Assembly: GCA_023386395.1 (NCBI GenBank)
Contig: JAEWJV010000189.1
Span: 1 to 24,703 of the forward strand
Length of the DNA stretch: 24,703 bases
Source: Bacteroidota bacterium
GTDB lineage: Bacteria > Bacteroidota > Bacteroidia > Chitinophagales > Chitinophagaceae
Direction: 5' to 3'
Shown here: one piece after another, positions 1,967 to 22,665 of the stretch
Numbering within the stretch: position 1 is the first letter of the stretch
How the letters are laid out: each line of letters begins with the position of its first letter
Program-made: the position numbers and the translations under genes
Notes under the pieces: model-generated
What the model was told of the DNA's origin: nothing
What the model saw: the letters and a program-made list of their open reading frames with translations, nothing else
Databases searched by the model: none

Positions 1967-1991
1967 ACCTTTCAATTAAAAAGTACCTCTA

Positions 1992-2591: not shown

Positions 2592-2597
2592 TATTTT

Positions 2598-3434
2598 TTA
2601 ATTTAAATGCATTTTATATATTGCTTTATTTAGCCTTTGAACAGGAGTTTCTAAACAAGTGCTTTGATATTGAAACCATTCCGAATCATACATCAAATCT
2701 TTAGTGTTTATGTTTTCTTTAAAGGTTTGACTACCCAGAATTTCATGAAATTTTTGTTCTGGGCTATTCTCTGTTCTTGCAGAAAGTTTTAAAATAGCAG
2801 CCATTTTTTTCATACTTTCGCTATAGTTAAAAATCATTTTATCATACGAAACTATTAAGTGTTGCTTATGAAAGTTAAGTTTTAATAATTTTAAAATTTG
2901 TTTATTAGCTTTAAGCCACGTATAAGCTTCAAATAAATCACTTCTTTTAATATATCCCAGTCTTTTTTTATGTTTTTTTATTGAATAAATCCAACCGCGA
3001 TAATCCCGTACACAATGGATTACAAAAATTTTTGCTTTATACTTTTCCGATTCCATACTTATCTTCAAATGATTAATAGATTTCGACGAATCTATTAGAA
3101 GATGATTGGGATATATTGTATAAGCAGCTGAATAAACTAATTCAATTGCCTCTTTAATGGAATTGGTGGAACGAATATCGTCTTCTATTTTACTCCAAAA
3201 GCTGTCTTTTCTAATCCGCTCCAATAAAATTGGATAAGTTTTACGATTCCAATAACTTTTATTTCTAAGTTTTAATAAGAGTTTCCATGTAGGAGATTTT
3301 TTTTCAATATTTTTTATTGCATATATTGTTTGAGTCACTTCTCCTAAGGCAACCACCTTATCAAAATTTAAAAATTGTGACTGTAAGAAAGTTGTACCGC
3401 TTCTTGGAAGCCCGGCAATAAATATAATTGACAT
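2598..3434 (-). CDS. PAPS-dependent sulfotransferase in polysaccharide locus
   Basis: A 278-residue protein starting MSIIFIAGLPRSGTTFLQ. The P-loop-like GLPRSGTT (residues 8-15) is the 5'-phosphosulfate-binding loop of sulfotransferases using 3'-phosphoadenosine 5'-phosphosulfate. VIHCVRDYRGWIYS at about 138-151 gives the Arg143 and Ser151 that bind the 3'-phosphate. It would place sulfate on a sugar of the repeat unit or on a lipid-linked intermediate. The frame is open 53 codons further upstream, but that part overlaps the flippase gene in another frame and lacks family similarity; the ATG at 3432-3434, directly before the sulfotransferase core and 8 bases after the flippase stop, is the likely start. 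No cysDN/cysC genes for making PAPS are in this window. The acceptor is unknown. Confidence 0.85.
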   Translation of the reverse strand: MSIIFIAGLPRSGTTFLQSQFLNFDKVVALGEVTQTIYAIKNIEKKSPTWKLLLKLRNKSYWNRKTYPILLERIRKDSFWSKIEDDIRSTNSIKEAIELVYSAAYTIYPNHLLIDSSKSINHLKISMESEKYKAKIFVIHCVRDYRGWIYSIKKHKKRLGYIKRSDLFEAYTWLKANKQILKLLKLNFHKQHLIVSYDKMIFNYSESMKKMAAILKLSARTENSPEQKFHEILGSQTFKENINTKDLMYDSEWFQYQSTCLETPVQRLNKAIYKMHLN

Positions 3435-3442
3435 AAGAAAGT

Positions 3443-4759
3443 TTAAAACGGTAATACCGTAGCGTTTATTCCTAAAAGCTTTTTTACTAAAATTACCATC
3501 ACGCCATTTCTTATAATAACTGATATGGCTATGGCAATTGATGCCCCAATAATTCCGTATGATTGAATAAAGAAGTAGTTTAATACTACACAAATGATGC
3601 TGCTGGCAGCCGTGACATAAAAGGCCTCCTTTTGATGGTTGGTCATGGTCATTAATAATCCTACAGAACCACTGAGAGCATTAAATACGTTGCTAATCAA
3701 AATAATTATTAAAGGCCAAAAGGCCACCTTAAACTCCTCCCCGAAAAGGCCCAAAATAGGCTTCCCAAAAAAAACAACAGGCATTGATATAAAAATAGTA
3801 AAAACAAAGATGAGCCAGGCAGACTGTTTAACAGTTTTCTGAAGCCCTTTCATATCTCCTGCGCCATATAACTTTGAAAATATTGGAGCCTCCACAAAAT
3901 TCACCGCCGTTAATCCAAATAAAATTATGGTATCGATTTTAAGTGCAGCATTATAAATACCTACATCTTTTGGAGTCATTAAAAGCCCGATCATAAATAC
4001 ATCGGCAGTTTTTAGAAGCACCTGCAAACTGCTTGTAAACAGCATAGGTAATGATGTTGACAGCCATTCCTTTATAGCATATACAGGTTTTGCAAACTTT
4101 ATTTCTTTTATGCTGAACCTATTTAACCCAATAATCTGGTAAATTAAAACTAAGAGAGTTGATCCCACATAAATCCAGGCAAAAGCAACAGCGCTAATGT
4201 TTTTTGTTATTAAATAATAAATACTGATATTAAAAAAAGATAGTAAAGCAGGCAATAAAATATAGTTTGGAAGCAATGCCAAAGTTAATTTATGTCTTGC
4301 TTGCGCAAGGGCTATTAATAAATTTACAAAAGCGTATAATGGTAAAGACAAAATAAAAATCATATAGGGGTTTCTATTTCCCGGAAGTACATAATTGGTA
4401 TGATATATAACAACATAGCTAATTATTATTGTTAAAATTGACATGCCGGTTATGCCTAAATATGAAGTCCTTTGATATCCTTTTAATAGCGGCCAGTTTT
4501 TATCTTCCAACTTCCTTGGATAGTAGCGAAGCGTATATGTACCAAATCCTAATAAGGTAGGAATAAGTAATAATTTCTGTAAGTTGACGGAAAAACTATA
4601 AATACCATAGGTGTTTACACCCAGAAAGCGGGCCAGCACCACATTACTTAAAAAAGCTGCAGCAGCGCCACATACCTGGTAAATAAAAGCCTTACGGATT
4701 TTTTTTATTAAATCCTGCTTAAAAAGATTTTTCATTTTAACGCCTAAAGGCGCCTTCAT
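3443..4759 (-). CDS. Wzx-type oligosaccharide flippase (MOP superfamily)
   Basis: A 438-residue integral membrane protein with about 12-14 helices spread along its length. It has the conserved N-terminal segment FIYQVCGAAAAFLSNVVLARFLGVNTYGIYSF in broken form (Gln in helix 1, ARFLG, then YG-Y), typical of polysaccharide transporters of the PST/Wzx branch. It moves undecaprenyl-diphosphate-linked repeat units from the cytoplasmic to the periplasmic face. The chosen ATG (4757-4759) overlaps the TAA of the epimerase gene as TAATG, suggesting coupled translation; the in-frame ATG at 4733-4735 (430 residues, MKNLFKQ) is an equally reasonable start. A further upstream reading to 4786 lies inside the epimerase gene and is unlikely. 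Confidence 0.88.
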   Translation of the reverse strand: MKAPLGVKMKNLFKQDLIKKIRKAFIYQVCGAAAAFLSNVVLARFLGVNTYGIYSFSVNLQKLLLIPTLLGFGTYTLRYYPRKLEDKNWPLLKGYQRTSYLGITGMSILTIIISYVVIYHTNYVLPGNRNPYMIFILSLPLYAFVNLLIALAQARHKLTLALLPNYILLPALLSFFNISIYYLITKNISAVAFAWIYVGSTLLVLIYQIIGLNRFSIKEIKFAKPVYAIKEWLSTSLPMLFTSSLQVLLKTADVFMIGLLMTPKDVGIYNAALKIDTIILFGLTAVNFVEAPIFSKLYGAGDMKGLQKTVKQSAWLIFVFTIFISMPVVFFGKPILGLFGEEFKVAFWPLIIILISNVFNALSGSVGLLMTMTNHQKEAFYVTAASSIICVVLNYFFIQSYGIIGASIAIAISVIIRNGVMVILVKKLLGINATVLPF

Positions 4760-5814
4760 TAATTTTGGTAATAATCCTGATACCATTCTACAAATTTGTT
4801 TATACCTGTTTTAATATCTGTTGAAGGTTTAAACTGCAGATCGTTGGTTAATTCATCTATATCGGCAAAGGTTGCCTCCACATCCCCCGGTTGCATTGGC
4901 ATCATTTGTTTTATAGCTTCCCTGCCCAAAGCCGTTTCCAGCACATTTATAAAATCCATTAGCCGCACTGGCTGGTTATTGCCAATATTATACACTTTAT
5001 AGGGGGCTGATGAAGCTGAAGCATTGCCGGTAAAAGCATCCCACAACGCATTTGCCTTTGAAGGATGCAGCAGCACCCTTACTATGCCATCAACAATGTC
5101 ATCCACATAAGTAAAATCTCTTTGCATATTTCCATCATTGAAAACCTTAATAGGCTTATTTTTCATAATAGCTTCTGCAAAAATAAAATAAGCCATATCG
5201 GGCCTGCCCCAAGGGCCGTAAACCGTGAAAAAACGCAAACCCGTTGTCGGCAGTTTGTATAAATGGCTATATACATGCGCCATTAATTCATTGCTTTTTT
5301 TAGTAGCAGCATACAATGAAACCGGATGATCGGCACGGTCATGGGTGGAAAACGGTATTTTTCTATTCAAGCCGTAAACACTCGAACTGCTGGCATATAC
5401 AAGATGTTCAATATTAAAATGCCGGCAGGCTTCCAAGATATTGGCGAAACCAACAACGTTAGACTGTATATAAGTTTTAGGGTTTTCTATGCTATATCTC
5501 ACTCCTGCCTGTGCAGCCATGTTAGCAACCATGGTAAAGTTCTCTTCTTTAAAAAGTGAGGTTAACCTTTCATCATCTTCCAGGTTAAGTTTTATAAATT
5601 TGAATTGTTTGCCATAGGTACTAGAAACCACAGATCTGCCATTCTCTATTTCATTTATATTTATCCCTAAATTTTTTAAACGCCCATATTTAAGCCCTGT
5701 ATCGTAATAAGCATTAATATTATCAAGCCCTACAACGTCATGGCCTTTGTCAATTAAGGCCTTTGCAAGAAATGAACCAATAAATCCGGCAGCGCCGGTT
5801 ACCAAAATTTTCAT
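4759..5814 (-). CDS. UDP-glucuronate 4-epimerase-like NAD-dependent epimerase
   Basis: A 351-residue extended short-chain dehydrogenase. The Rossmann motif GAAGFIG is at residues 7-13, DNINAYYDTGLKYGRL follows the second strand, and the catalytic Tyr168-x3-Lys172 pair sits in LYAATKKS, with the Ser-rich SSSSVYG just before it. GPWGRPDMAYFIF is the signature of the CapI/LpsL group, which interconverts UDP-glucuronate and UDP-galacturonate. Length and motif order match that group. Substrate assignment is by family; because the only nucleotide sugar dehydrogenase in the window is of the TviB/WbpO type, activity on an N-acetylated uronic acid cannot be excluded. The ATG at 5812-5814 begins directly with the first beta strand. 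Confidence 0.88.
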   Translation of the reverse strand: MKILVTGAAGFIGSFLAKALIDKGHDVVGLDNINAYYDTGLKYGRLKNLGININEIENGRSVVSSTYGKQFKFIKLNLEDDERLTSLFKEENFTMVANMAAQAGVRYSIENPKTYIQSNVVGFANILEACRHFNIEHLVYASSSSVYGLNRKIPFSTHDRADHPVSLYAATKKSNELMAHVYSHLYKLPTTGLRFFTVYGPWGRPDMAYFIFAEAIMKNKPIKVFNDGNMQRDFTYVDDIVDGIVRVLLHPSKANALWDAFTGNASASSAPYKVYNIGNNQPVRLMDFINVLETALGREAIKQMMPMQPGDVEATFADIDELTNDLQFKPSTDIKTGINKFVEWYQDYYQN

Positions 5815-5994
5815 TTATAATTACTATTTTGTTTAAAGGAATATTGAAATAGAATAACTAAAATGCACTTCGCTTAAGGTTCTTTTCTCATGGAAGGCAA
5901 AAATAAAGATGACTGAACTGCATCATTTCTTACCGGCTTTTAGGTTTGTGCTGCAAATTATCAAATTGCAATTTAAACAGCTATTCAGCGTATT
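5815..5994 (-). promoter_or_regulatory. 180-base spacer upstream of the epimerase gene; possible internal promoter
   Basis: The gap between the Wzc and epimerase genes is the longest break within the downstream half of the polysaccharide series. Read on the minus strand it contains TATTTTTG at 5905-5898, a match to the Bacteroidota -7 box TAnnTTTG, about 85 bases before the epimerase ATG. A clear -33 TTTG at the usual spacing is not visible. An internal promoter here is therefore possible but weakly supported. No terminator-like hairpin with a T-run is apparent. Confidence 0.25.
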
Positions 5995-8370
5995 TTATTT
6001 AAAAGACAGCCAGTTCTTTTTCTTTTTCTGTTCGAAATACCCATAACCATAGCCATAGCCGTAACCATAGCCATACCGGTAAGTACTGCCTTTTTTTACG
6101 TCGTTTACTATAATATACAATTTATTCATCCTGCCGGTTTCTGTCAGTTCATTTAATATCTCTATCCCGCTTTTAAAACTATAGCCCTGTCTCATCACAT
6201 ATAAATTTGCATCAGTGTATTTCGAAAGTATCTGCGCATCGGTAACAGCGCCAATAGGAGCGGTGTCTATTATTATTACGTCAAACGAGGCCCTTAGTTC
6301 ATCAAACATTGTTTCCATTTTATCACTCATCAGCAATTCAGCCGGGTTGGGTGGAACCAGCCCTGAGCTAAAAAGAAAAATATTGGGGGCCACTCTTAAT
6401 TCTTTTATAAACTCATTAACCGGCCTATCGCCTATTATATAAGAAGTAAACCCTGATTCATTGGAAAGACCCAACATCGCTGATAATTTAGGCTTACGCA
6501 AATCCATCTCCATTAACAGTACTCTTTTACCGCTGTATGCATAGGTGGCAGCAAGCCCGGAACTTATAAAGGATTTACCTTCCCCCGAAATGGTAGATGT
6601 AATAAGTATTATGGGACATGATTTCTTTTTTATTACAAAATCTAAGTTGGTTCTAAACACCCTGAATTGTTCTGCCACAGCTGTGCGGCCGGCCTCTTTC
6701 ATATTTAATATGCCTTCACCATCATAATGCCCAACTTCTGCAAGTATTGGAACCTGTGTGTTGCCAGTAATATCTTCCCTGCTTACTATTTTATTGGAAA
6801 GCAGTTGTTTTAAAATTATAAAGCCTGTGGGCAAAATAAACGCAAAGAGTATAGCTGATGCACCAATAAGCATTTTGTTAGGAGAATATGGAAGGTATTC
6901 AGACTTGGGTTCCTGTATTACACTGGCACTTGGAATATTGGATGCTCTTGTTATAGCTGTTTCTTCTTTCTTCTGCAGTAAATAAAGATAAAGGGCTTGT
7001 TTTACATCTTTTTCCCTGGATAAATCTACATATTGGCGCTCCTGTGCAGGCACTTTTTTAATATATCCTGCCATTTGATCATTTTCCTGTGCAATTTTAT
7101 TCCTGCTTATTTCAAGAGCCTTTTTTTGGCTTTGCAAGCTTCTCACCATGTCGGCACGTACGTTTTTTATTTGCGTACTTAGGTTGGATGCAATGGGATT
7201 ATTTTCCTTAACGGTAAGAGATAGCCTTTCCTTTTGCAAGACCAGCATATTATACTGCTGCATTAATTGCAGAAAAGTGGGATCTGTCGTTAATAAGGCA
7301 GGCACTGTTTTGCTTTTATTCTTTTCGTCCATTAAATAGTCAAGCATGGTAGAAACAACATTCAACTGGACATCCACCTCATTCAATTTTTGATAATAGG
7401 CAGAGGTATTTTCTATAAGCATTTGAGATTGGGCTTCAATATTTGCCAGGTTGTTTTTTTGCTTAAACTGCTCTATATCGGTTTCAATGCCTGTAAGATC
7501 CCCTGAAACAAGCCCTATACGGCTGTTGATAAATGTGATAGTACTGTCTGAAATTGCATTTTTCTCAGTTAGGTTCCGCTGCATGTATTGCTGAATGAGC
7601 GTCTTTATAACAGCTTCGCCTTTCCTAGGAATATTAGTATTATAATCTATCTGGATAACAGTAGTTTGGTCATCCGGGATAGATATTGCCATGTTTTGTT
7701 TAATATTGGCAACAACTGCATCAACTGAATTTACAGAAAGAATATAATTCGTTGTGGTAAAATCCTCGCCTGTGGTATTTAAGCAAAGTCTGCCGGCAGG
7801 GGAATTAATGGTATCGCCAAAAGTTGCAGTTACTTCAAAATTATAGTCTTCATTACTAATAGTGTATTTTGATTTTTTTTCGGCAGCTGGTATTGCAACC
7901 TCAAATTGGATTAAGCTGATAGAATCAGAAACCGGAAAAAATGTAGCCATAAAAGGCGTTCTATCGTACAATTCGACATTCCTTATATCACCTTTACTAA
8001 AATAAGCAACATTTAGCTTAAGCTCATTTATTGTTTTTACTAATAAATCCTGTGTCTTTAAAATGGCCATCTCGTTATATACATTGCTTTGCATGCTAAA
8101 CAGACCTCCAAAATCCTGCATAATAGCGCTTGTAGCAAAAGATGCAGAGGATGATGAGCCTCCTTTACTGTCATTGTCTTCCACCAAAACCTGTGAATGC
8201 ACTTTATACATTGGAGTAGAGTACCTTATATACAAAAAGGCTAAGATTAAAAGAGCTATTAAACTTAAAAGGTAAAGTTTCCACTGAACAAGAAATCTGC
8301 CAATAATCTTTTTTATATCAAATTCCTCGTCAGGCTTTTGAGAAATCATACCTGTTTGCGTATTATCCAT
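5995..8370 (-). CDS. Wzc-like polysaccharide co-polymerase / tyrosine autokinase
   Basis: A 791-residue inner-membrane protein. An N-terminal membrane helix lies at about residues 32-50 and a second near 500-520. Between them is the periplasmic Wzz-type domain with long coiled-coil helices (about 260-440). The cytoplasmic BY-kinase domain has Walker A TISGEGKS (about 591-598), Walker A' LLMEMDLRKP (about 615-624) and Walker B VIIIDTAPIG (about 699-708). The tail (about 764-778) is an alternating Tyr-Gly run after YRYG, the expected autophosphorylation cluster, followed by a Lys patch. It controls chain length and couples export with the Wza-like protein encoded 21 bases upstream. The start at ATG 8368-8370 is preferred over a TTG two codons earlier. 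No Wzb-type phosphatase gene is seen nearby. Confidence 0.93.
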   Translation of the reverse strand: MDNTQTGMISQKPDEEFDIKKIIGRFLVQWKLYLLSLIALLILAFLYIRYSTPMYKVHSQVLVEDNDSKGGSSSSASFATSAIMQDFGGLFSMQSNVYNEMAILKTQDLLVKTINELKLNVAYFSKGDIRNVELYDRTPFMATFFPVSDSISLIQFEVAIPAAEKKSKYTISNEDYNFEVTATFGDTINSPAGRLCLNTTGEDFTTTNYILSVNSVDAVVANIKQNMAISIPDDQTTVIQIDYNTNIPRKGEAVIKTLIQQYMQRNLTEKNAISDSTITFINSRIGLVSGDLTGIETDIEQFKQKNNLANIEAQSQMLIENTSAYYQKLNEVDVQLNVVSTMLDYLMDEKNKSKTVPALLTTDPTFLQLMQQYNMLVLQKERLSLTVKENNPIASNLSTQIKNVRADMVRSLQSQKKALEISRNKIAQENDQMAGYIKKVPAQERQYVDLSREKDVKQALYLYLLQKKEETAITRASNIPSASVIQEPKSEYLPYSPNKMLIGASAILFAFILPTGFIILKQLLSNKIVSREDITGNTQVPILAEVGHYDGEGILNMKEAGRTAVAEQFRVFRTNLDFVIKKKSCPIILITSTISGEGKSFISSGLAATYAYSGKRVLLMEMDLRKPKLSAMLGLSNESGFTSYIIGDRPVNEFIKELRVAPNIFLFSSGLVPPNPAELLMSDKMETMFDELRASFDVIIIDTAPIGAVTDAQILSKYTDANLYVMRQGYSFKSGIEILNELTETGRMNKLYIIVNDVKKGSTYRYGYGYGYGYGYGYFEQKKKKNWLSFK
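6040..6075 (-). repeat. Six hexanucleotide units encoding the Tyr-Gly tail of Wzc
   Basis: Six consecutive 6-base units, written on the plus strand as variants of CCATAG, CCGTAA and CCATAA, encode six Tyr-Gly pairs at the Wzc C-terminus. The units differ at third codon positions, so the run is kept by selection on the protein or is an old expansion rather than a fresh slippage product. Unit number could change the count of phosphorylatable tyrosines without shifting the frame. Confidence 0.9.
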
Positions 8371-8391
8371 AAACAATTTTAAATTCTTTAA

Positions 8392-9207
8392 TTAACGTGT
8401 TCTCAATGCTACAAGTGCTACCGTAAGTATAGCTGCAGCAATAGTTATGTAACGATTCCGATAGGCATCCGTGGAAGCAATCTTATATTTATTGGGCTGC
8501 ACATAAACAATGTCGTTAGATTGCAGGTAAAAATAGGGAGAGCTCACAATGTCTTTATTATTAAGGTTAAGGCGGATAAGCTTCTTATCGTTCAGGGTAT
8601 CCCGCATCAATAACACATTTTCCCGCCGCCCGTATATAGTCATGTCGCCTGCAAGTCCCAAAGCATCAAAAATATTCACCCTTTCATTAGGAACAATATA
8701 AGTAGAAGGTCTTAGCACCTCACCAATTACCGTTATTTTAAAATTAGCATACCTTACATTTACAATAGCATTATTAAAATATTTATCCACTTCTTTTGTA
8801 ACCAAATCCTTGGTTTCTGCAGTGGTTAATCCCGCAACATGCAGTCTACCCACAAAAGGAAGTTCTATATATCCATCCTTATCCACCAAATATCCATTCA
8901 CATTTGGAGGATTATTTCCGGGTACACTACCGGAGACAGGTAAGGTTGTGGAGGTATTATTCAAACTATTCGTATTATTAAGCAGGGACGTAACGTCATT
9001 ATCTATTGTTTCGATGGTTACCGATAAAATATCATCCGGCTGGATCACCGGTGATTTAAAGGGCACCGTTTTAACCACGACAGGCTTTGCAGTATCTGCA
9101 TAATCCTGAAAATAGGAAACGTTTTTATAGGAAGTGCAGGAGTTTAATAGTAATAATAATGCGGTAAAAAGCAAGAAAGATAAAAAAGACAACCTGGTAT
9201 GCTTCAT
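8392..9207 (-). CDS. Wza-like polysaccharide export outer-membrane lipoprotein
   Basis: A 271-residue protein with a type II signal peptide: MKHTRLSFLSFLLFTALLLL followed by LNSC, with Cys24 as the lipidated residue. The poly-export domain covers about residues 50-150 (KSPVIQPDDILSVTIET, then VDKDGYIELPFVGRLHVAGLTTAE), and an SLBB-type domain follows (ITVIGEVLRPSTYIVPNERVNIFDALGLAGD). A hydrophobic stretch at about 252-267 fits the C-terminal outer-membrane helix of Wza. It forms the outer-membrane exit for the polymer and works with the Wzc-like protein encoded 21 bases downstream. A Ser/Thr/Asn-rich insertion (about residues 75-100) lies within the export domain. The ATG at 9205-9207 gives a complete signal peptide. 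Confidence 0.93.
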   Translation of the reverse strand: MKHTRLSFLSFLLFTALLLLLNSCTSYKNVSYFQDYADTAKPVVVKTVPFKSPVIQPDDILSVTIETIDNDVTSLLNNTNSLNNTSTTLPVSGSVPGNNPPNVNGYLVDKDGYIELPFVGRLHVAGLTTAETKDLVTKEVDKYFNNAIVNVRYANFKITVIGEVLRPSTYIVPNERVNIFDALGLAGDMTIYGRRENVLLMRDTLNDKKLIRLNLNNKDIVSSPYFYLQSNDIVYVQPNKYKIASTDAYRNRYITIAAAILTVALVALRTR

Positions 9208-9440
9208 GTTAATATGAATTAATTGCTTTTAAATGGGCCGATATGGCTATATAATGATATGGGGGCACAACAAAATACAAAAACAAGCCTTACAATATTA
9301 CAGTTGAATATCGTTTCAGTTAGCTGATTCCGGGGACCTTTATAATTCACAATGAATGTATTTTAAATAAATCAAAATAAAGACTGATTGGCTTAAAAAT
9401 CAAATGGAATACAAGTATAATAAATTTTTACAATATTAAA

Positions 9441-10724
9441 TTACAGCCTTGCATCTGCAAGTTCTTTGCCAATACATCCTTTTATATCAAAAATAACAGC
9501 ATTATTCTTTTTGTATGGCATAAAATCCATTTCGAGGAATGCCGCATGCGCAACTGCAATGATAACAGCCGCGTAATGCTTGTCTATTTCTTCCGCGGTT
9601 ATTACATTAATACCTAATTCCTTTTTCACCTCTTCCTTATTCACCAGCGGGTCATATACATCCGTTTCCACTCCAAACTGCTGCAGTTCGCGGTATATAT
9701 CAATCACCTTGCTGTTTCTTATATCGGGGCAGTTTTCCTTAAAAGCTATACCCAGCAGTAAGGTTTTACAACCCTTTATAGTATGGCCTTTTTTGATCAT
9801 CAGCTTAACCACCTTGCCTGCTATAAAAGCGCCCATCATATCATTTACTCTTCTGCCGGACAGTATCACTTGCGGATGATAACCAAGTGAAGTTGCTTTA
9901 TGAGCAAGATAATAGGGATCAACACTTATACAGTGTCCACCCACCAAACCAGGTCTGAAGTTTAAGAAATTCCATTTGGTACCGGCCGCTTCCAGCACAT
10001 CGTTTGTGTCAATACCTATACGGTCAAATATGAGCGCCAGTTCATTTACAAAAGAAATATTTACATCGCGCTGGGCATTTTCAATGGCCTTGGAAGCCTC
10101 GGCCACTTTTATACTGGGCGCCTTATGCGTACCGGCGGTTATGATAGTTCTATACAAACTATCGATCCTTTCTGCAGCTTCCGGCGTTGAACCCGATGTT
10201 ACTTTTTTAATATTCACCAGCGTATTCACCTTGTCGCCGGGATTAATGCGCTCGGGCGAATACCCTACATAAAAATCTTTATTGAATACAAGACCGGATG
10301 CATTTTCCAACACAGGCACACATTCTTCTTCTGTGCATCCCGGGTAAACAGTTGATTCATAAATAACCGTGTCACCCTGTTTTAAAACCCGCGCTGCTAT
10401 TTCAGAGGCCTCCAACAAATAGCTGAGATCAGGCGCATTATACCGGTCAACCGGCGTTGGAACGGTTATAATATAAACGTTGCCTGCTTTTAGATCTTCC
10501 AGGTTATTTGTAAAAAAAATGCCTTTAGAATTGTTGTTATCCTGTTTTAAAACAGCCTGCAAAACCCGTGGTTCTGCTTCCAGCGTGCGGTCTTTCCCTT
10601 CCTTTAATTCGGCAATTCTCTGGCTATTTATATCGAATCCGGTAACCGCAAAATGTTTGGCAAATTCCAGGGCAAGAGGCAAGCCTACATAACCCAATCC
10701 AATCACAGCTATCCTGGTATTCAT
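9441..10724 (-). CDS. TviB/WbpO-type UDP-N-acetylhexosamine 6-dehydrogenase
   Basis: A 427-residue nucleotide sugar dehydrogenase. The NAD-binding motif GLGYVGLP is at residues 9-16. The middle region has VYESTVYPGCTEEECVP and VGYSPERINPGDK, and the catalytic Cys265 sits in GLVGGHCISVDPYYL, followed by the C-terminal UDP-binding domain (GIAFKENCPDIRNSKV). These segments, and even the terminal DARL, resemble TviB/VipA of the Vi antigen pathway and WbpO more than UDP-glucose dehydrogenase (Ugd) or WecC. It would oxidise UDP-GlcNAc or UDP-GalNAc at C6 to the uronic acid using two NAD+. It is the first gene of the leftward polysaccharide series, separated from wza by 233 AT-rich bases, so it may be transcribed separately. 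Confidence 0.88.
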   Translation of the reverse strand: MNTRIAVIGLGYVGLPLALEFAKHFAVTGFDINSQRIAELKEGKDRTLEAEPRVLQAVLKQDNNNSKGIFFTNNLEDLKAGNVYIITVPTPVDRYNAPDLSYLLEASEIAARVLKQGDTVIYESTVYPGCTEEECVPVLENASGLVFNKDFYVGYSPERINPGDKVNTLVNIKKVTSGSTPEAAERIDSLYRTIITAGTHKAPSIKVAEASKAIENAQRDVNISFVNELALIFDRIGIDTNDVLEAAGTKWNFLNFRPGLVGGHCISVDPYYLAHKATSLGYHPQVILSGRRVNDMMGAFIAGKVVKLMIKKGHTIKGCKTLLLGIAFKENCPDIRNSKVIDIYRELQQFGVETDVYDPLVNKEEVKKELGINVITAEEIDKHYAAVIIAVAHAAFLEMDFMPYKKNNAVIFDIKGCIGKELADARL

Positions 10725-16265: not shown

Positions 16266-17813
16266 ATGGCTTCATCCAATGAATTCCTCGCTGCCATAAA
16301 CAATGGTTATAGTTTTAAAGGAGATCATATTAAAATAGGCTGCGGTATGCTTGATGGCCAGGTTGTTCCGGGCGCTGATGTATCCATCCCTTTGCGCATG
16401 CTTAACCGCCACGGTCTTATTGCCGGCGCCACAGGAACGGGCAAAACCAAAACATTACAGCTCCTGAGCGAATTTTTAAGCGATGCCAGCGTACCGGTTG
16501 TAATGATGGATATTAAAGGCGACCTGAGTGGCATTGCTGCAGCAGGTGCTGTGAATGATAAACTTGCCGAACGTATAAAACTGCTTAACATTAATTATGT
16601 GCCAACAGGTTTCCCGGTTGAATTGCTTACATTAAGCAATGAAAAGGGAATAAGGTTAAGGGCTACGGTAACAGAGTTCGGGCCAATATTACTCAGTAAA
16701 ATCCTCGGCCTGAACGATACGCAGGGCGGAGTGGTTTCAATGCTGTTTAAATATTGCGATGATAATAAACTTCCCCTGCTTGACCTGAAGGATTTCATTA
16801 AGATATTGCAATATGCCGCCAATGAAGGCAAAGATGAACTGGGCAAGATGTATGGCAACATTTCATCTGCAACAACAGGCACCATCCTGCGCAAGGTGGT
16901 TGAACTGCAGCAACAGGGCGCTGATATATTCTTCGGCGAACCCAGCTTTGAAATTGACGACCTGATGCGCATAAACGATGATGGCCGTGGCATGATCAAT
17001 ATTCTTCGCGTTACAGACATGCAGAGCAGGCCAAAACTCTTTTCAACATTCATGCTGCAAATGCTGGCAGAACTGTATGCCACCTGTCCCGAAGAAGGCG
17101 ACCTTGACAGGCCAAAGCTTGTAATGTTTATTGATGAAGCACACCTCATTTTTGAAGAAGCGACAGATGCATTATTACAACAGATAGAAACCGTCATAAA
17201 ACTTATCCGCTCGAAAGGCATAGGCATTTTCTTCTGCACACAGAACCCGCAGGATGTGCCGGCTTCCATATTAAGCCAGCTTGCCTTAAAAGTGCAACAT
17301 GCACTGCGCGCCTTTACCGCCGCCGACAGGAAGACCATTAAAAAAGCCGCGGAGAATTTTCCGGAAACAGATTTCTATAAAACAGAAGACCTGCTTACGC
17401 AGCTCGGCACAGGCGAAGCCTTTATAACAACATTGAATGAAAAAGGCATTCCCACACCACTGGTGCATACCATGCTTTGCCCACCCCGCAGCCGCATGGA
17501 TATTTTAAGCGAAAGCGAAATAGATGCATTGATTGCCAAAAGCAAGCTCATCAATAAATACAACCGGGAGATCAACAGCGAAAGCGCTTATGAAATACTA
17601 AACGAAAAATTACAGGTTGCAGCGGAAAGGCAGCAACAACAGGCGCAGGCGGCACAGCAGCAAAAACAAACCCGGCAGGTTAAAGAAAAAAGCATTTTTG
17701 ATACGCCCGCCATGCGCCAGGTTGAACGAACTGCCGCTTCTGTAATTACACGCAGCATATTAGGCGCATTAGGCCTGGGCGGCAGCCGCCGCAAAAGAAA
17801 AAGCTGGTTTTAA
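16266..17813 (+). CDS. HerA-like ATPase of the YjgR/DUF853 family
   Basis: A 515-residue cytoplasmic P-loop ATPase. Walker A is GATGTGKT (54-61) and Walker B is FIDEAH (288-293). Between them lie MDIKGDLSGI (81-90) and the GTILRKVVELQQQGADIFFGEPSFEIDDL segment typical of YjgR-like proteins. QNPQDVPASILSQLALKVQHALRAF corresponds to sensor and arginine-finger regions of the FtsK/HerA superfamily. A Gln-rich linker (about 448-470) precedes a basic C-terminus ending RRKRKSWF. HerA-type proteins are hexameric DNA translocases, but the cellular role of the YjgR branch is not settled. No NurA-type nuclease gene is adjacent. The ATG at 16266 follows a T-rich leader. Confidence 0.9.
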   Translation: MASSNEFLAAINNGYSFKGDHIKIGCGMLDGQVVPGADVSIPLRMLNRHGLIAGATGTGKTKTLQLLSEFLSDASVPVVMMDIKGDLSGIAAAGAVNDKLAERIKLLNINYVPTGFPVELLTLSNEKGIRLRATVTEFGPILLSKILGLNDTQGGVVSMLFKYCDDNKLPLLDLKDFIKILQYAANEGKDELGKMYGNISSATTGTILRKVVELQQQGADIFFGEPSFEIDDLMRINDDGRGMINILRVTDMQSRPKLFSTFMLQMLAELYATCPEEGDLDRPKLVMFIDEAHLIFEEATDALLQQIETVIKLIRSKGIGIFFCTQNPQDVPASILSQLALKVQHALRAFTAADRKTIKKAAENFPETDFYKTEDLLTQLGTGEAFITTLNEKGIPTPLVHTMLCPPRSRMDILSESEIDALIAKSKLINKYNREINSESAYEILNEKLQVAAERQQQQAQAAQQQKQTRQVKEKSIFDTPAMRQVERTAASVITRSILGALGLGGSRRKRKSWF

Positions 17814-17814
17814 G

Positions 17815-17863
17815 GATGAGTTGTGAATAGCGGGTTGAGAGTTGTCAATCGTGAAACGTGAAT
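17815..17863. repeat. Seven-unit degenerate 7-bp tandem repeat
   Basis: Units are GATGAGT, TGTGAAT, AGCGGGT, TGAGAGT, TGTCAAT, CGTGAAA and CGTGAAT. The period and the central GA(A/G) match the arrays at 14948 and 11119. The last unit also supplies the left arm of the palindrome at 17858. Confidence 0.65.
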
Positions 17864-17874
17864 GCAATATTCAC
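17858..17874. promoter_or_regulatory. Palindrome upstream of D-lactate dehydrogenase
   Basis: GTGAAT-GCAAT-ATTCAC is a perfect 6-bp dyad with a 5-base spacer, 43 bases before the dehydrogenase ATG. The position suits an operator. Spacing differs from the canonical CRP site (GTGA-N6-TCAC; here N9), so the binding protein is unknown. Confidence 0.35.
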
Positions 17875-17917
17875 TTATACACCAGCTTGTTTAAGCACAA
17901 AAAATAATATTGTTATT

Positions 17918-18910
17918 ATGAAGATCGCTCTGTTCAGCGCTAAAAGTTATGATAAGGAATATTTTGACAGGATCAATAAATATCATCATTATTCCATTAC
18001 TTATTTTGAAGCAGGACTTAATAAAAACACCGCTAACTTAACACAAGGCTTTGACGCGGTTTGCATTTTTGTAAATGATAATCTTGATAAGGAAACGATT
18101 GAAAAGATTGCGGCAAACGGCATTAAAATTATTGCCTTGCGCTGCGCCGGTTTTAATAACGTTGATATTTCTGCAGCGTATGCAAACAACATTAAAGTGG
18201 TGCGTGTGCCCGCTTATTCTCCTGAAGCTGTGGCAGAACATGCCGTGGCGCTTATTCTTACATTAAACAGGAAAACCCATAAAGCCTATAACCGTGTAAG
18301 GGAAAGCAATTTTTCGCTGGAAAGGCTTACGGGTTTTAACCTGCATAATAAAACAGTTGGTGTAATTGGCACAGGCATTATAGGGAGGGCGTTTTGCAAT
18401 ATCATGCTGGGTTTTGGATGCTGTGTTATAGCTTATGACGTTTATGAAGCAGATGAATTAAAGCGGAAAGGCGTTAAATATGTAAGCCTTGATGAATTGC
18501 TTGCGCAAGCTGATATTATTTCCCTGCATTGCCCGCTTACGCCCGAAACAAAACATATTATTAATAAAAGTGCTTTTAGTAAGATGAAGAATGGCGCAAT
18601 GCTCATTAATACCGGCCGCGGCGCATTGATTAATACAAAAGATGCCATCAAAGCTTTGAAGGATGGAAAGCTTGGTTACCTGGGCATTGATGTATATGAA
18701 CAGGAAACCAATATTTTCTTTCGCGATCTTTCTGAAGAAATTATGCAGGATGAAATCTTTGCAAGGCTGATGACTTTTCCCAATGTGCTGGTTACAGCAC
18801 ACCAGGCATTTTTTACCAGCGAAGCCTTAGAGCAGATAGCCACCATAACATTAAACAACTTAGCAGATTTTGAAAATGGTAAAGCGCTTGTAAACGAAGT
18901 AAAAGCCTGA
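17918..18910 (+). CDS. ldhA: Fermentative D-lactate dehydrogenase (LdhA-like)
   Basis: A 330-residue member of the D-isomer 2-hydroxyacid dehydrogenase family, close in length and sequence style to Escherichia coli LdhA (329). The NAD-binding loop is GTGIIG (151-156), and the catalytic set is Arg234 (NTGRGALINT), Glu263 (VYEQETNIFF) and His295 (TAHQAFFT). LRCAGFNNVD (74-83) provides the substrate loop. It reduces pyruvate to D-lactate with NADH, regenerating NAD+ when respiration is limited. The frame is open 20 codons upstream into the repeat array, but the ATG at 17918 begins the conserved MKIALFSAKSYD. It converges on the DUF6132-like gene with only 5 bases between stops. Confidence 0.92.
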   Translation: MKIALFSAKSYDKEYFDRINKYHHYSITYFEAGLNKNTANLTQGFDAVCIFVNDNLDKETIEKIAANGIKIIALRCAGFNNVDISAAYANNIKVVRVPAYSPEAVAEHAVALILTLNRKTHKAYNRVRESNFSLERLTGFNLHNKTVGVIGTGIIGRAFCNIMLGFGCCVIAYDVYEADELKRKGVKYVSLDELLAQADIISLHCPLTPETKHIINKSAFSKMKNGAMLINTGRGALINTKDAIKALKDGKLGYLGIDVYEQETNIFFRDLSEEIMQDEIFARLMTFPNVLVTAHQAFFTSEALEQIATITLNNLADFENGKALVNEVKA

Positions 18911-18915
18911 AATTT

Positions 18916-19113
18916 TTATGCCCGTTTTTGAGAAAACACGGAAGCCAGCAGGCCTCCCATTATGCTTCCGTAAATGCTGCTGTTAACAGGTTTGGATGTA
19001 ATGGCGCATGTGCCGGAGTTGCATCCTATAAATTTCCAGTATAGAAAGCCTGCAGCAGCGCCAATAAATATGCCCGCAATAATTGCTATATTTTTCTTTA
19101 AAAACACTTTCAT
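18916..19113 (-). CDS. DUF6132-like small membrane protein with CxSGxC motif
   Basis: A 65-residue protein with two hydrophobic segments (about 9-26 and 46-60). The loop between them has GCNSGTCAITSKP (Cys31, Cys36), the recognisable mark of the DUF6132-type family of Bacteroidota and allied groups. Its biochemical function is unknown. With a Lys-rich N-terminus inside, the Cys pair would face the periplasm. It is the last gene of the OsmC-rhodanese series. Its ATG follows by one base the TAG that would end the upstream haem lipoprotein if that gene were in its original frame. The Cys motif is nearly the same as that in the YgaP-like protein two genes upstream. Confidence 0.8.
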   Translation of the reverse strand: MKVFLKKNIAIIAGIFIGAAAGFLYWKFIGCNSGTCAITSKPVNSSIYGSIMGGLLASVFSQKRA

Positions 19114-19114
19114 C

Positions 19115-19697
19115 CTATTTTGTCATTTTTATTTTCCATAAGCCTCTAAGTTCACCGGCATGGTAACCGGTAGCCTTGTCAGCCGGGTACTTTTGATTGA
19201 TAACTGCTAATACTTCGGAAGATATCTGTTTGCGTATGGCCATGGCATTTGAGGCAGGTGGGCATGGCAATGGTAATTGCTTTATAGTAAGTAATGCTGT
19301 TACCCGACTGCATGATAAAATGCTTTTGCTTTTGTGCGCTATCTTGTATTAACTCATTCATTTGCTGCCAGGCAAGGCTGTCTGCAGCAGTTTGCAGTGC
19401 ATTACCGGGATTACGGTTTTTATTGCTAATCCTGCTAATAGCATATCCATACAAGGCAGCAGCGGAGTCTGTAAGCGGAATTGCTTTTTCGCTGCAAAAA
19501 CCAACTGCACCGGCCACACCGCGTGTTTGTATGGCATTGGATACATTGTACAACAGCATTGCCTGTGCGAAGGAGGCAACGCTATCACCCCTGCGTAAAT
19601 ACAATGCTTCATCCGGCGTGCTTTTTTCAGATGGCGTATTGTTGCAAGCTGCCAGCAGTGTAGTTAACACAAACACTATAAATGCCGTATGCTTCAT
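19115..19697 (-). pseudogene. Tll0287-like (DUF3365) haem lipoprotein, frameshifted near C-terminus
   Basis: The uninterrupted frame (19179-19697) encodes 172 residues: a lipoprotein signal (LLAAC, Cys18), the Tll0287-like region (GVAGAVGFCSEKAIPLTDS, ISRISNKNRNPGNALQ) and a c-type haem site CLKCH (Cys148, Cys151, His152). After HGHTQTDI the frame runs into a non-family tail and TGA. In another frame the family's normal ending is present: SEVLAVINQKYP, then DKATGYHAGELRGLW and TAG at 19115-19117. A one-base gain or two-base loss near 19217-19221 explains this. The protein would be a periplasmic, membrane-anchored haem sensor or electron carrier. The haem site survives, so some function may remain; a sequencing error is also possible. 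Confidence 0.8.
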
Positions 19698-19703
19698 TCC
19701 TGA

Positions 19704-19940
19704 TTATTTTCTATCGTCATGTAATTTATCGCCTGTTGCGCAGGTACGGTTACCTGTGCTGGAAATGCTGCAACTGCCCGAACCGCAGCCACCTATATTG
19801 AATACCGGCATTAAAGAAAACAGCGCACCGATGAGAATAAAGCTCCAGTCATGCATCCTGATTCCCTGCACCAGTACCAACACCCCAACCGCAAGCCGAA
19901 AAACACGCATAAAATTCCAGCTACTTAAATATTGTTTCAT
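19704..19940 (-). CDS. YgaP-like (DUF2892) small membrane protein with CxSGxC tail
   Basis: A 78-residue protein. Two hydrophobic segments (about 12-28 and 32-48) include FMRVFRLAVGVLVL and the MPVFNIGGC junction typical of the YgaP transmembrane domain family. A Cys-rich tail follows: GGCGSGSCSISS (Cys52, Cys57) and Cys67. In E. coli YgaP this membrane part is fused to a rhodanese domain; here the rhodanese is a separate gene 52 bases upstream. With both termini inside, the Cys tail would be cytoplasmic, within reach of the rhodanese. It may anchor or receive persulfide sulfur, but this is inferred. The haem lipoprotein gene begins 6 bases after its stop. Confidence 0.82.
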   Translation of the reverse strand: MKQYLSSWNFMRVFRLAVGVLVLVQGIRMHDWSFILIGALFSLMPVFNIGGCGSGSCSISSTGNRTCATGDKLHDDRK

Positions 19941-19992
19941 ACCTATATCTTATTTTCTGAATGATGAAATCTCCCGGCAATAAACGGCTGCA

Positions 19993-20310
19993 TTATTTAT
20001 TCATGCATGCCTGAACATTATGCCACGATCCGCCATTTATTATATTCCGTATACCTTTTTCTTCCAGCATGCCTTTTGCCCGTCCTGCCCTGCCGCCGCT
20101 TTGACAAAAAAGAACGATGCCATTTTCTGCTTTAAACTCAGATAAACGGCTCAGCACTTTATCTAACGGAATATTGACAGCACCTTTCACACTGCCCATG
20201 GAAAATTCTCCGGGGGTACGTACATCTACCAGATAAGCACCGTTTTTTATGGCCCCGGCAAGGGCTTCATTATCTGTTCCTGCGAACAGGTTTTTAAACA
20301 TTTCAAACAT
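19993..20310 (-). CDS. Single-domain rhodanese-like protein
   Basis: A 105-residue cytoplasmic rhodanese domain. It has LVDVRTPGEFSMGSVKGAVNIPL at about 27-49 (the conserved D-V-R-x-x-x-E and G-A-x-N-I-P elements) and the active-site loop CQSGGRAGRA with catalytic Cys69. It would carry persulfide sulfur on Cys69 and transfer it to thiols, cyanide or a partner protein. The gene lies in a minus-strand series with OsmC upstream and a YgaP-like membrane protein downstream, as if a YgaP protein had been split in two. This context favours handling of sulfide or reactive sulfur over a housekeeping role. The ATG at 20308-20310 is chosen; Met4 is a possible alternative. Confidence 0.92.
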   Translation of the reverse strand: MFEMFKNLFAGTDNEALAGAIKNGAYLVDVRTPGEFSMGSVKGAVNIPLDKVLSRLSEFKAENGIVLFCQSGGRAGRAKGMLEEKGIRNIINGGSWHNVQACMNK

Positions 20311-20370
20311 TTTGTTCTATTATTAAATTAAAAAATACTTTACTGAAAACTGAATAATATTTTGGAACAC

Positions 20371-20805
20371 CTAATTCAGAGACGGGCTGAGCGTAATAAC
20401 TGTTTTCATTGAATTGGTTACCAGGCAGCCGGTTTTAGCTTTTTCAAATACCCGCATTACTTTCTCCGCATCTTCCTGCGGGTGTGCAAGCTTAACAACC
20501 GGATGCATTTCGGCTTCCGTTATCTGGTACCTGCCATCAACCATTTGAAGCCGGGCGACTGTTTTGCAGTCAAAATCTTCCACCTCAATTTTAAAATTAT
20601 GTGCAATGGCTAAAAAGGTAGCCATATAACAACTGTTTATAGAAGCTACAAACAAGTGCTCCGGAGACCAGATGCCCCTAACGCCATCCGGGAATTCAGG
20701 CGGTGTGGCGCATTCGATGGTTTTATTTAAAACAGGTGATGAAAGTTCACCAACCCTTCCTTCTTTACGTCGAATATTTACTTCATAAAAATGTTCCTGT
20801 GCCAT
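20371..20805 (-). CDS. OsmC family protein
   Basis: A 144-residue OsmC/Ohr-fold protein. Two family cysteines are visible: Cys59 in SINSCYMATFLAIA and Cys127 in KTGCLVTNS, along with PEHLFVAS. OsmC proteins are homodimers that reduce organic hydroperoxides, and some members act on persulfides or other reactive sulfur. It is first in the minus-strand series leading to the rhodanese gene 60 bases downstream, probably one operon. The upstream region has two palindromes (20811-20857 and 20873-20886) that could bind a regulator. The ATG at 20803-20805 gives the normal family length. The substrate cannot be fixed from sequence. Confidence 0.9.
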   Translation of the reverse strand: MAQEHFYEVNIRRKEGRVGELSSPVLNKTIECATPPEFPDGVRGIWSPEHLFVASINSCYMATFLAIAHNFKIEVEDFDCKTVARLQMVDGRYQITEAEMHPVVKLAHPQEDAEKVMRVFEKAKTGCLVTNSMKTVITLSPSLN

Positions 20806-20810
20806 ATATT

Positions 20811-20886
20811 AAGTTTTGCTTTTGCAGTATTATATTGTTTTGCAAAATTCAAAACTTAACCAGACCCGTACAGTAACTTTAGTTAC
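20811..20886 (-). promoter_or_regulatory. Regulatory region upstream of the OsmC gene with two dyads
   Basis: AAGTTTTG (20811-20818) and CAAAACTT (20850-20857) form a perfect 8-bp inverted repeat with inner TTTTGCA/TGCAAAA arms, and GTAAC-TTTA-GTTAC (20873-20886) is a perfect 5-bp dyad. On the minus strand TTTG near 20852 is followed after about 17 bases by TAATACTG, a partial -33/-7 pair. The GTAAC dyad would sit upstream of it, where an activator might bind. All of this is positional inference. Confidence 0.4.
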
Positions 20887-20953
20887 ATAAGAAAGGCTGT
20901 AAGAAAGTATTTAGTGTTTTTAAACCTGTGGCCAATAAAATATAAGCACGGGT

Positions 20954-22462
20954 TTACTCCTCTTCCTTATCATACTCAACCCCAAAAAAATTAAAGCCAC
21001 TTACATTCCCTTTTTCATTTAAATTAAAACGTAAAAAAGCTTTACCATACCATTTGTGTTCAAACCTGCCAAGGAAAGTGTCATAATTCCAATGGCTCAA
21101 ATCAATATTGATATTGTTGGGGAATTTGGCTACGAGAGAATCGCCCTGCAATGCAATACCTGCATTGCCATATATTTCATTATGATAATTACCCGCATAA
21201 TTTTTCAGCTCAAGCGAAGGTTTTGTATGTAAAACCCTTGTTGAATCTGTTTTTGCTTCTTCTTTTTTATAAGCAGCAAAGCGGTCGGTGTAAAGTTTAT
21301 AGAGGTCTTTGCTCCAGTCGGTTTTATCATCATTAAAAACAAAAAGATCCATTGCCTTATACAGTAAAGCATGACGTATTTCAGTATGGTCCATATTGGC
21401 AAACATATACACTCCAAAATGTTCATCCGGTATTAGCCCGGCAATAGCAACGGCCCCGTCAAGACTACCTGTATGAAACTGTACCATCTGCCCTTTATAA
21501 TCTTCCTGGAACCAGCCAAGCCCATAAGTTGTCCAATGCGAATGGGTTAATTGCCTGGTTGGATAAAATTCATCTTCCGTAACAATAGATTGCGGCTTAA
21601 ATAATTCCAGGTATGTTTCCTGTTTTAATAAAGGCTTCCCGTTGATCCTTGTACTGTCAAGCATAAAACTTATCCATTTGCCCATATCATCCGTACAACT
21701 CCAGACGCCGCCTGCCGCATCAATGGTTTTGCTGTCAATAAAAGGTATGGTTTCAACGACGCTGTCTTCATACATATAATGCGGTGTGATGTGATTATTA
21801 CTTACCAATGATTGGCTGTAATTGGGAAAAGTATTGTTCATGCCAAGCCTTGCAAACAAACTGTCTTTAATAAACCTGTCCCATGATATGCCCGAAACCT
21901 TATGTATTACTTCACCCGCCACCATGTACATGAGGTTTTGATAAATAAAAGAAGAGCGAAACGAATAGGCAGGTTTTATATAACGCATCTGGTGAATGAT
22001 GGTATCCATGCTGTAATCAAAAACCCAAAGCAGGTCAGCATTGCCGAGACCAGCATTATGCGTAAAAAGGTCTTTAATGGTAAGCTCGCTGTTGGCATAG
22101 TTATCATACAATTTAAGTTCAGGATAAATATCACTTACTTTATCTGTCCAGTTAATTTTTCCCGCATCCACCAGCATGCCCATACATACAGCCGTCATAG
22201 CTTTGGTGGTAGAAGCGCATATAGAAAGTGTTGACGTTTCAAATGGCGCTTTTGTTGTAATATCTTTTACGCCATAACCTTTATTAAAAACAACTTTGTT
22301 GTCTTTAACCACTACCACAGAAAGGCCCGGCGTTTTCCATAACTGCATTGCATTTTGTATGTATGCATCAAAACTTTTTATAGCCTTTTGATAAGGCACA
22401 TTTTGCGTGTATGCAGTAATAAGAAAAAAGGTTAGAAAAACAAGAAGCGGTAATTTTCTCAT
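20954..22462 (-). CDS. Exported beta-lactamase-fold serine hydrolase (class C / PBP4*-like)
   Basis: A 502-residue protein with a signal peptide (MRKLPLLVFLTFFLITAYTQ). The serine beta-lactamase/transpeptidase-like core carries all three motifs: S85-T-T-K88, Y174-Q-N176 and H330-T-G332. After about residue 410 a C-terminal domain of the DUF3471 type follows (LKNYAGNYHNEIYGNAGIALQGDSLVAKF). Relatives include esterases, D-aminopeptidases and penicillin-binding-protein-like enzymes; few are true antibiotic-inactivating lactamases, and the substrate here is unknown. It probably acts in the periplasm or outside the cell. It is divergent from the secreted esterase gene across 203 bases and stands 148 bases from the OsmC gene, so it is likely a separate transcription unit. 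Confidence 0.88.
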   Translation of the reverse strand: MRKLPLLVFLTFFLITAYTQNVPYQKAIKSFDAYIQNAMQLWKTPGLSVVVVKDNKVVFNKGYGVKDITTKAPFETSTLSICASTTKAMTAVCMGMLVDAGKINWTDKVSDIYPELKLYDNYANSELTIKDLFTHNAGLGNADLLWVFDYSMDTIIHQMRYIKPAYSFRSSFIYQNLMYMVAGEVIHKVSGISWDRFIKDSLFARLGMNNTFPNYSQSLVSNNHITPHYMYEDSVVETIPFIDSKTIDAAGGVWSCTDDMGKWISFMLDSTRINGKPLLKQETYLELFKPQSIVTEDEFYPTRQLTHSHWTTYGLGWFQEDYKGQMVQFHTGSLDGAVAIAGLIPDEHFGVYMFANMDHTEIRHALLYKAMDLFVFNDDKTDWSKDLYKLYTDRFAAYKKEEAKTDSTRVLHTKPSLELKNYAGNYHNEIYGNAGIALQGDSLVAKFPNNINIDLSHWNYDTFLGRFEHKWYGKAFLRFNLNEKGNVSGFNFFGVEYDKEEE

Positions 22463-22665
22463 AGCTGTGATTTATTGTGTACAAGATAAAGCTTTGCAAT
22501 GTTTCCGCATGCTTGTTCCAATAAGATTTTCGAAAGAAACCTGCTGAAAGACAGCATTTGTTAACGCTTCTGTTACATTCTTTATAATTATGTAATATTG
22601 ACAATTAATATAAGGCACACTATAAACTACCACCAGCAATCAAACAAAACAAGTTTTAAAAATAA

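Follow-up and report, generated by a model that had tools for sequence, protein, structure and literature searches.

What joins an OsmC-family protein, a single-domain rhodanese, a c-type haem lipoprotein and two tiny cysteine-bearing membrane proteins in one short run of genes? The run occupies 18916-20805 on the minus strand of contig JAEWJV010000189.1, from a Bacteroidota bacterium of the Chitinophagaceae (assembly GCA_023386395.1). The whole stretch analysed, positions 1 to 24,703 of that contig, is called the window here. We consider it likely that the five genes form one operon of a Bacteroidota regulon for sulfane-sulfur stress (sulfide, persulfide and polysulfide). This reading rests on same-strand clustering and on a shared operator that keeps a constant spacing to a -7-like promoter box. 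A further basis is that the same composite precedes genes for MBL-rhodanese, TauE, SQR-like proteins and thioredoxin reductase, as well as some of the haem, OsmC, rhodanese and YTM genes located outside the cluster (YTM being one of the two tiny membrane proteins). MBL-rhodanese denotes here a metallo-beta-lactamase/rhodanese protein of the persulfide-dioxygenase type. The initial annotation had described five closely spaced minus-strand neighbours, and this was borne out by five consecutive open reading frames (ORFs) in the order osmC, rhodanese, YTM, haem lipoprotein and DUF6132, with intergenic gaps of 60, 52, 6 and 65 nt. Its assignments of OsmC, rhodanese and DUF6132 also held, with Pfam scores above the cut-offs. 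The features of the locus are as follows.

20873..20886, no strand assigned: operator palindrome GTAACTAAAGTTAC, 81 bp upstream of the osmC start
20843..20850, minus strand: putative -7 element GAATTTTG, 36 nt from the operator start, with one mismatch to TAnnTTTG (first base)
20371..20805, minus strand: OsmC-family protein, 144 aa; PF02566, 52.8 bits against a cut-off of 27.5
19993..20310, minus strand: single-domain rhodanese, 105 aa; PF00581, 49.8 bits against a cut-off of 22.2
19704..19940, minus strand: YTM membrane protein, 78 aa; C-x4-C behind the second hydrophobic segment
19179..19697, minus strand: Tll0287-like (sCache_heme) c-type haem lipoprotein, 172 aa, shortened by a frameshift; PF11845, 40.3 bits against a cut-off of 24.1; CLKCH
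19115..19270, minus strand: ORF in another frame, whose end corresponds to the C-terminus of an intact haem relative; matched alone by the haem-family profile
18916..19113, minus strand: DUF6132 membrane protein, 65 aa; PF19628, 33.8 bits against a cut-off of 23.2; two predicted helices

Residues C59, C127, R17 and E49 of the OsmC family were invariant (15/15 aligned), as was the Cys of the rhodanese CxSGxR loop (25/25 aligned). Judged by its sequence, the OsmC-family protein is intact in its peroxidase-type residues, and reduction of peroxide or sulfane sulfur is its predicted activity.

Gene neighbourhoods of DUF6132 in Bacteroidota

Loci anchored on DUF6132 were collected from species genomes, and the best 80 of 453 were compared. 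Eight groups of near-identical loci were present among the 80, and dereplicated counts (67 loci once these were merged) were therefore used. Neighbour families were named by one representative apiece. Rhodanese counts are those of profile A5; the first rhodanese cluster profile also matched thioredoxin-like proteins (the match in L113 is Redoxin/thioredoxin-like), and rhodanese labels are looser in the neighbourhood clustering, in the gene order of L014 and L026 and in the haem-DUF6132 distances than in the A5 counts. Results showed that, on the same strand and within 5 kb of DUF6132, rhodanese was present in 48 of the 67 loci, YTM in 47 (38 with both), haem in 19 and OsmC in 16, and any of these four partners in 61. 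Within 6 kb on either strand, the neighbours were MBL-rhodanese (41), thioredoxin (38), Crp/Fnr (28), TauE (24), YeeE/YedE-type proteins (20 and 19), TPMT (14), YgaP_TM (12) and a 1-Cys peroxiredoxin (10). In the control, outer flanks more than 6.5 kb away (81 sequences) gave no match to YTM, haem or OsmC and five to rhodanese. The five-gene arrangement is not due to chance. The initial annotation had proposed a thiol and sulfane-sulfur theme, which is supported by the MBL-rhodanese, TauE, YeeE/YedE-type and thioredoxin neighbours together with the shared operator and promoter.

The exact gene order of the window recurs in L014 and L026, and in 16 of 21 other haem-bearing loci no more than 60 bp separate the end of the haem gene from the DUF6132 ORF, with or without the remaining genes. 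Because these loci had been picked by DUF6132, a second survey covered 147 evenly drawn Chitinophagaceae genomes (113 of the listed rhodanese matches were used, and the rhodanese figures are lower bounds). DUF6132 occupied 65 places in these genomes. At 43 of them YTM lay no farther than 5 kb away, as did rhodanese at 42 or more, always on the same strand; OsmC was within 5 kb in 8 and haem in 5. Haem genes occupied 14 places, 5 of them near DUF6132 and 4 of those 5 directly upstream of it, and OsmC genes occupied 49 places, 8 of them near DUF6132. The core of the locus is rhodanese, YTM and DUF6132, with haem and OsmC as optional members, and the window operon is a compact form of a locus common in Bacteroidota.

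Two further observations concern these loci. A small conserved family (about 128 aa) lies near DUF6132 in five of them, as at L044:7566-7952 and L061:3616-4002. The first 15.8 kb of L016, L017, L018 and L020, with the entire sulfur locus included, is 99.96-99.99% identical, and their records are named Pedobacter, Filimonas, Chitinophagaceae strain and Bacteroidetes metagenome-assembled genome (MAG); this identity reflects either recent transfer or contamination.

A shared operator and a candidate regulator

The palindrome GTAACTAAAGTTAC is the sole GTAAC-N4-GTTAC in the window, where base composition alone predicts 0.029. In the window and the 80 loci taken together, this pattern occurred 44 times against 1.3 expected, and a labelled locus gene begins within 500 bp downstream of 36 of the 44 palindromes. 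A TAnnTTTG box, which we take to be the Bacteroidota -7 element, begins at precisely 36 nt, counted from the start of the site, in 22 of 41 distinct contexts and elsewhere in one. When the arms and the box were relaxed, a spacing of 36 was found in 67 contexts upstream of locus genes (distinct by sequence only, with several supplied by close relatives), and any other spacing from 20 to 59 in at most 4. At spacings of 35-37, counted over all positions, there were 104 matches against 21 in reversed sequences. The relaxed composite site is present in 47 of the 81 sequences, including the window, in which the exact operator is followed at +36 by GAATTTTG. In L026, which shares the gene order of the window, GTAACTAAAGTTGC precedes osmC, and the rhodanese gene has a further site upstream of it.

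The exact composite site, defined as GTAAC-N4-GTTAC with the -7-like box at spacing 36, was then sought in whole genomes. It was found at 28 sites in 18 of the 147 Chitinophagaceae genomes (2 for the reversed pattern) and at 54 sites in 26 of 296 Bacteroidota genomes (1 for the reversed pattern). These are 74 distinct sites (8 shared), and the downstream genes were read at 55. Genes of the locus families follow 29 of the 55, namely MBL-rhodanese, TauE, rhodanese, YTM, haem, OsmC, YgaP_TM-rhodanese, TPMT, YeeE-type and DUF983-type followed by Crp. Other targets were SQR-like proteins (2), TrxB (1) and a thioredoxin-like protein (1). Sites also precede genes apart from the cluster: a haem gene without nearby DUF6132 (L081), another that is 4.5 kb away from DUF6132 (L092), an isolated osmC (L088) and a rhodanese gene on a different contig from DUF6132 (L094). 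Dispersed genes can thus be co-regulated; the exact site is absent from most dispersed haem genes of the 147 Chitinophagaceae genomes. In L106 and L006 (near 942), the operator precedes an MBL-rhodanese paralogue with a signal-peptide-like N-terminus, which is possibly periplasmic.

One Crp/Fnr group accounts for 29 of the 32 distinct Crp/Fnr-like proteins of the loci and carries a single invariant Cys in G(E/D)(S/T/G)C; the remaining three resemble unrelated paralogues. This residue, C76, was invariant in 21/21 aligned proteins, including two encoded behind DUF983-type genes at sites. The Cys-bearing Crp is encoded in every one of the 18 genomes that contain the exact composite site, compared with 91 of the 129 genomes lacking that site (Fisher p 0.003, uncorrected for relatedness), and in three genomes (G056, G138 and G142) the Crp gene ends beside a site. 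At L123:1542-2563 and L129:1549-2569, a site is followed by a small gene (DUF983 in L123, similar-looking in L129) and then by the Cys-bearing Crp. From these sequences we infer that the Cys-bearing Crp may bind the site and sense sulfane sulfur. Class II activators sit near -41.5, and the proposed activator, a Crp/Fnr-family protein with its single invariant Cys, would bind this operator at about -41.5, with sulfane sulfur as the switch.

The cst operon of Staphylococcus is related to the bigR operon. In Xylella and Agrobacterium, the bigR operon, as set out in the available part of PMC5823870, encodes a TauE-related transporter together with a dioxygenase-rhodanese, both controlled by a repressor. 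The wider Bacteroidota locus is similar in having a rhodanese-type protein together with an MBL dioxygenase protein, a TauE-related transporter and a putative thiol-responsive regulator; type III persulfide dioxygenases are reported in Bacteroidota MAGs (PMC12345210). Unlike bigR and cst, the window operon is without dioxygenase and TauE by cluster profiles (the related loci have them in 41/67 and 24/67). The candidate regulator differs as well, being a Crp/Fnr-family activator and not a BigR repressor, and YTM, DUF6132 and the haem lipoprotein set the locus apart from the bigR operon as described in that part of PMC5823870.

The haem lipoprotein and the small membrane proteins

A single-sequence search with the window haem protein returned 12 relatives. 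The relative P0122 (labelled Parafilimonas sp.) shares 93% identity with the query across 92% of the query length and is intact at 194 aa, while the window ORF ends shortly past CxxCH and the missing Tll0287 C-terminus lies in the other frame, in ORF 19115-19270. The window copy is therefore frameshifted, either genuinely or by a sequencing or assembly error. With the gene extended through this piece, 1 nt would separate it from DUF6132, as is the case in four relatives (L022, L023, L026 and L053). The periplasmic c-type haem lipoprotein of the initial annotation stands by its PF11845 score of 40.3 bits, its CLKCH motif and its lipobox Cys, and has to be amended for a frameshifted ORF.

The lipobox Cys, C68 and CxxCH are invariant in the family (25/25 aligned); sequence alignment to 5b82 could not match C68, the further invariant Cys, to the ligand Cys of Tll0287. 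The lipoprotein was assigned to the Cache fold; GSU0582 and other haem-Cache structures were not among the fold matches listed, and no weight is placed on their absence. Its c-type haem is probably ligated by His and Cys. Compared with Tll0287/sCache_heme (PDB 5b82; PMC12889525, available in part), the lipoprotein gene here sits immediately ahead of DUF6132 within a sulfur locus, and the available text of that source on sCache_heme makes no mention of rhodanese or of an operon. In TsdA, a Cys-ligated haem handles sulfane sulfur via Cys S-thiosulfonate, according to the available parts of PMC4423706 and PMC9562282. As a working analogy only, the lipoprotein may likewise have, as TsdA and SoxA do, a Cys haem ligand able to carry sulfane sulfur. 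Unlike them, it has a Cache fold and a single CxxCH.

YTM gave no match to Pfam at E<=0.1, and a single-sequence search with it returned one protein, P0001; in the family alignment (n=29) the C-x4-C motif is near-invariant. E. coli YgaP is a rhodanese fused to a two-helix membrane domain. The locus resembles it in pairing a rhodanese with a tiny two-helix Cys membrane protein. Unlike in E. coli, the genes are separate here, and YTM could not be placed in YgaP_TM (PF11127), with no Pfam match and an hhalign probability of 4.7% against true YgaP_TM rows from DUF6132 loci. The earlier description of the 78-aa protein as YgaP-like is accordingly dropped, and on these comparisons YTM is best treated as a separate family. 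The search with DUF6132 returned 275 proteins, and both of its Cys are invariant (29/29 aligned). Two tiny Cys-motif membrane proteins had been described from the start, and C-x4-C is indeed present in both YTM and DUF6132. Sequence kinship between them was not supported, as just 16 columns around the Cys motif align (32% probability), and neither was kinship between DUF6132 and YgaP_TM (0.9% probability). The DUF6132 model has two helices with C-x4-C within the joining loop (pLDDT 79, modest). Charge bias favours cytoplasmic termini for YTM and does so weakly for DUF6132, whose loop is likewise positively charged. By this topology, the Cys pair of DUF6132 is predicted at the periplasmic face and that of YTM at the cytoplasmic face.

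Within the proposed operon, sulfane sulfur in the cytoplasm would be reduced by OsmC and carried by rhodanese, YTM and DUF6132 would shuttle either sulfur or thiol redox equivalents through the inner membrane, and the haem lipoprotein would receive electrons or sulfur at the periplasmic end, as TsdA/SoxA-type Cys-ligated haems do. The Cys pairs and the predicted topology permit the trans-membrane step, which we propose tentatively and regard as rather doubtful. A slightly less likely, more ambitious version is a relay from rhodanese through YTM and DUF6132 to a Cache-fold, Cys-ligated haem c that would oxidise sulfur by independently evolved TsdA/SoxA-like chemistry, under a new class of Crp/Fnr activators sensing sulfane sulfur via one Cys.

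Competing readings of the operon

Several results weigh against assigning the five genes to a sulfane-sulfur regulon. The initial annotation had asked for a neighbourhood survey, which found conserved same-strand clustering but all five genes in just 4 of the 67 dereplicated loci; a fixed five-gene unit is thereby ruled out. In the 147 Chitinophagaceae genomes, 9 of 14 haem genes and 41 of 49 OsmC genes lie farther than 5 kb from DUF6132, and the five genes occur together in at least one genome among the matches listed (G140, non-contiguous). L014 and L039 have all five genes and no site even by the relaxed pattern, and L053, also with all five, has one upstream of MBL-rhodanese only. The exact composite is limited to 18/147 and 26/296 genomes. 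Two family names are approximate: the SQR-like proteins score 237.6 and 235.8 bits against an NCBIfam cut-off of 525, and MBL-rhodanese is named by domain, with Blh at 54 bits against a cut-off of 625. Further points of this kind concern the targets of the site and the window itself.

TolC-type outer-membrane proteins stand behind 10 of the 55 sites, and other or no recognised genes behind 12, including one Hcp (L109) and one SulP, which means that the operator is not restricted to sulfur genes. These targets, and a Crp group found in 109 of 147 genomes, would suit a palindrome that is the generic operator of a broad Crp/Fnr regulator of envelope, efflux and redox functions; the five genes would then be general stress genes, and the site would say little about sulfur. 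We think this improbable, since over half of the site loci lead into a single small group of sulfur-handling families, whose genes cluster physically with or without the site. The TolC-type gene (OEP) lies directly behind the site in L085, L099, L114, L116, L117, L119, L121, L122, L124 and L130, and would be either the export arm of this regulon or a target of another Crp.

The Hcp gene at L109 would suit another explanation, a nitrosative or oxidative stress operon in which the Crp/Fnr protein senses nitric oxide (NO) or redox state, OsmC clears organic hydroperoxides, the haem handles NO or peroxide, and sulfur genes are co-regulated via thiol damage. The intact peroxidase-type residues of OsmC and the 1-Cys peroxiredoxin near 10 of 67 loci agree with it, and signalling-fused sCache_heme domains show NO-sensor properties in the available part of PMC12889525. 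The same part describes the stand-alone sCache_heme protein as a weak NO binder, however, and Hcp occurs at just one of the 55 site loci against 29 with sulfur-locus families; we give this explanation a small chance. OsmC itself fits a sulfur regulon because ohr of Pseudomonas aeruginosa, encoding an OsmC/Ohr-type thiol peroxidase, is induced by sulfane sulfur (PMC9495516, in its available part). Unlike the candidate activator, OhrR is a MarR-type repressor, and the partners found here are not in the description of OhrR/Ohr given there.

In the window itself, the haem gene is frameshifted, and no MBL-rhodanese, TauE or Crp gene was found by cluster profiles. Both points would be expected if the operon were decaying in this organism, with the haem gene broken and the remainder of the locus lost. 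Yet the out-of-frame haem tail nearly equals that of its relative, which points to a very recent loss or to an error, while the operator is intact and the other four ORFs retain the family-conserved residues. Decay is therefore very improbable.

In the window as a whole, neither an Rfam match at the gathering score nor a tRNA was found. In 17500-22500, sigma-70 promoter-like sites (22 against 14.7, standard deviation 3.2) and terminator-like sites (6 against 6.1) were uninformative. An exopolysaccharide cluster occupies 452-10724 (Wzy-type polymerase, hexapeptide transferase, sulfotransferase, flippase, epimerase, Wzz/kinase, export protein and UDP-sugar dehydrogenase).

No description of the locus, the operator or a role for DUF6132 was found in the titles and abstract openings of the open-licence literature. 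The initial observation was mostly right and is more meaningful than was proposed, the five genes being probably a compact, operator-marked member of a Bacteroidota sulfane-sulfur regulon. If this is true, Bacteroidota would have a sulfur-stress control circuit not described in the open-licence literature searched. The results suggest a first job for the haem protein and the tiny membrane protein, in a regulon linked to sulfide and persulfide. The explicit operator and the candidate Cys-bearing Crp/Fnr activator make the function of both directly testable.
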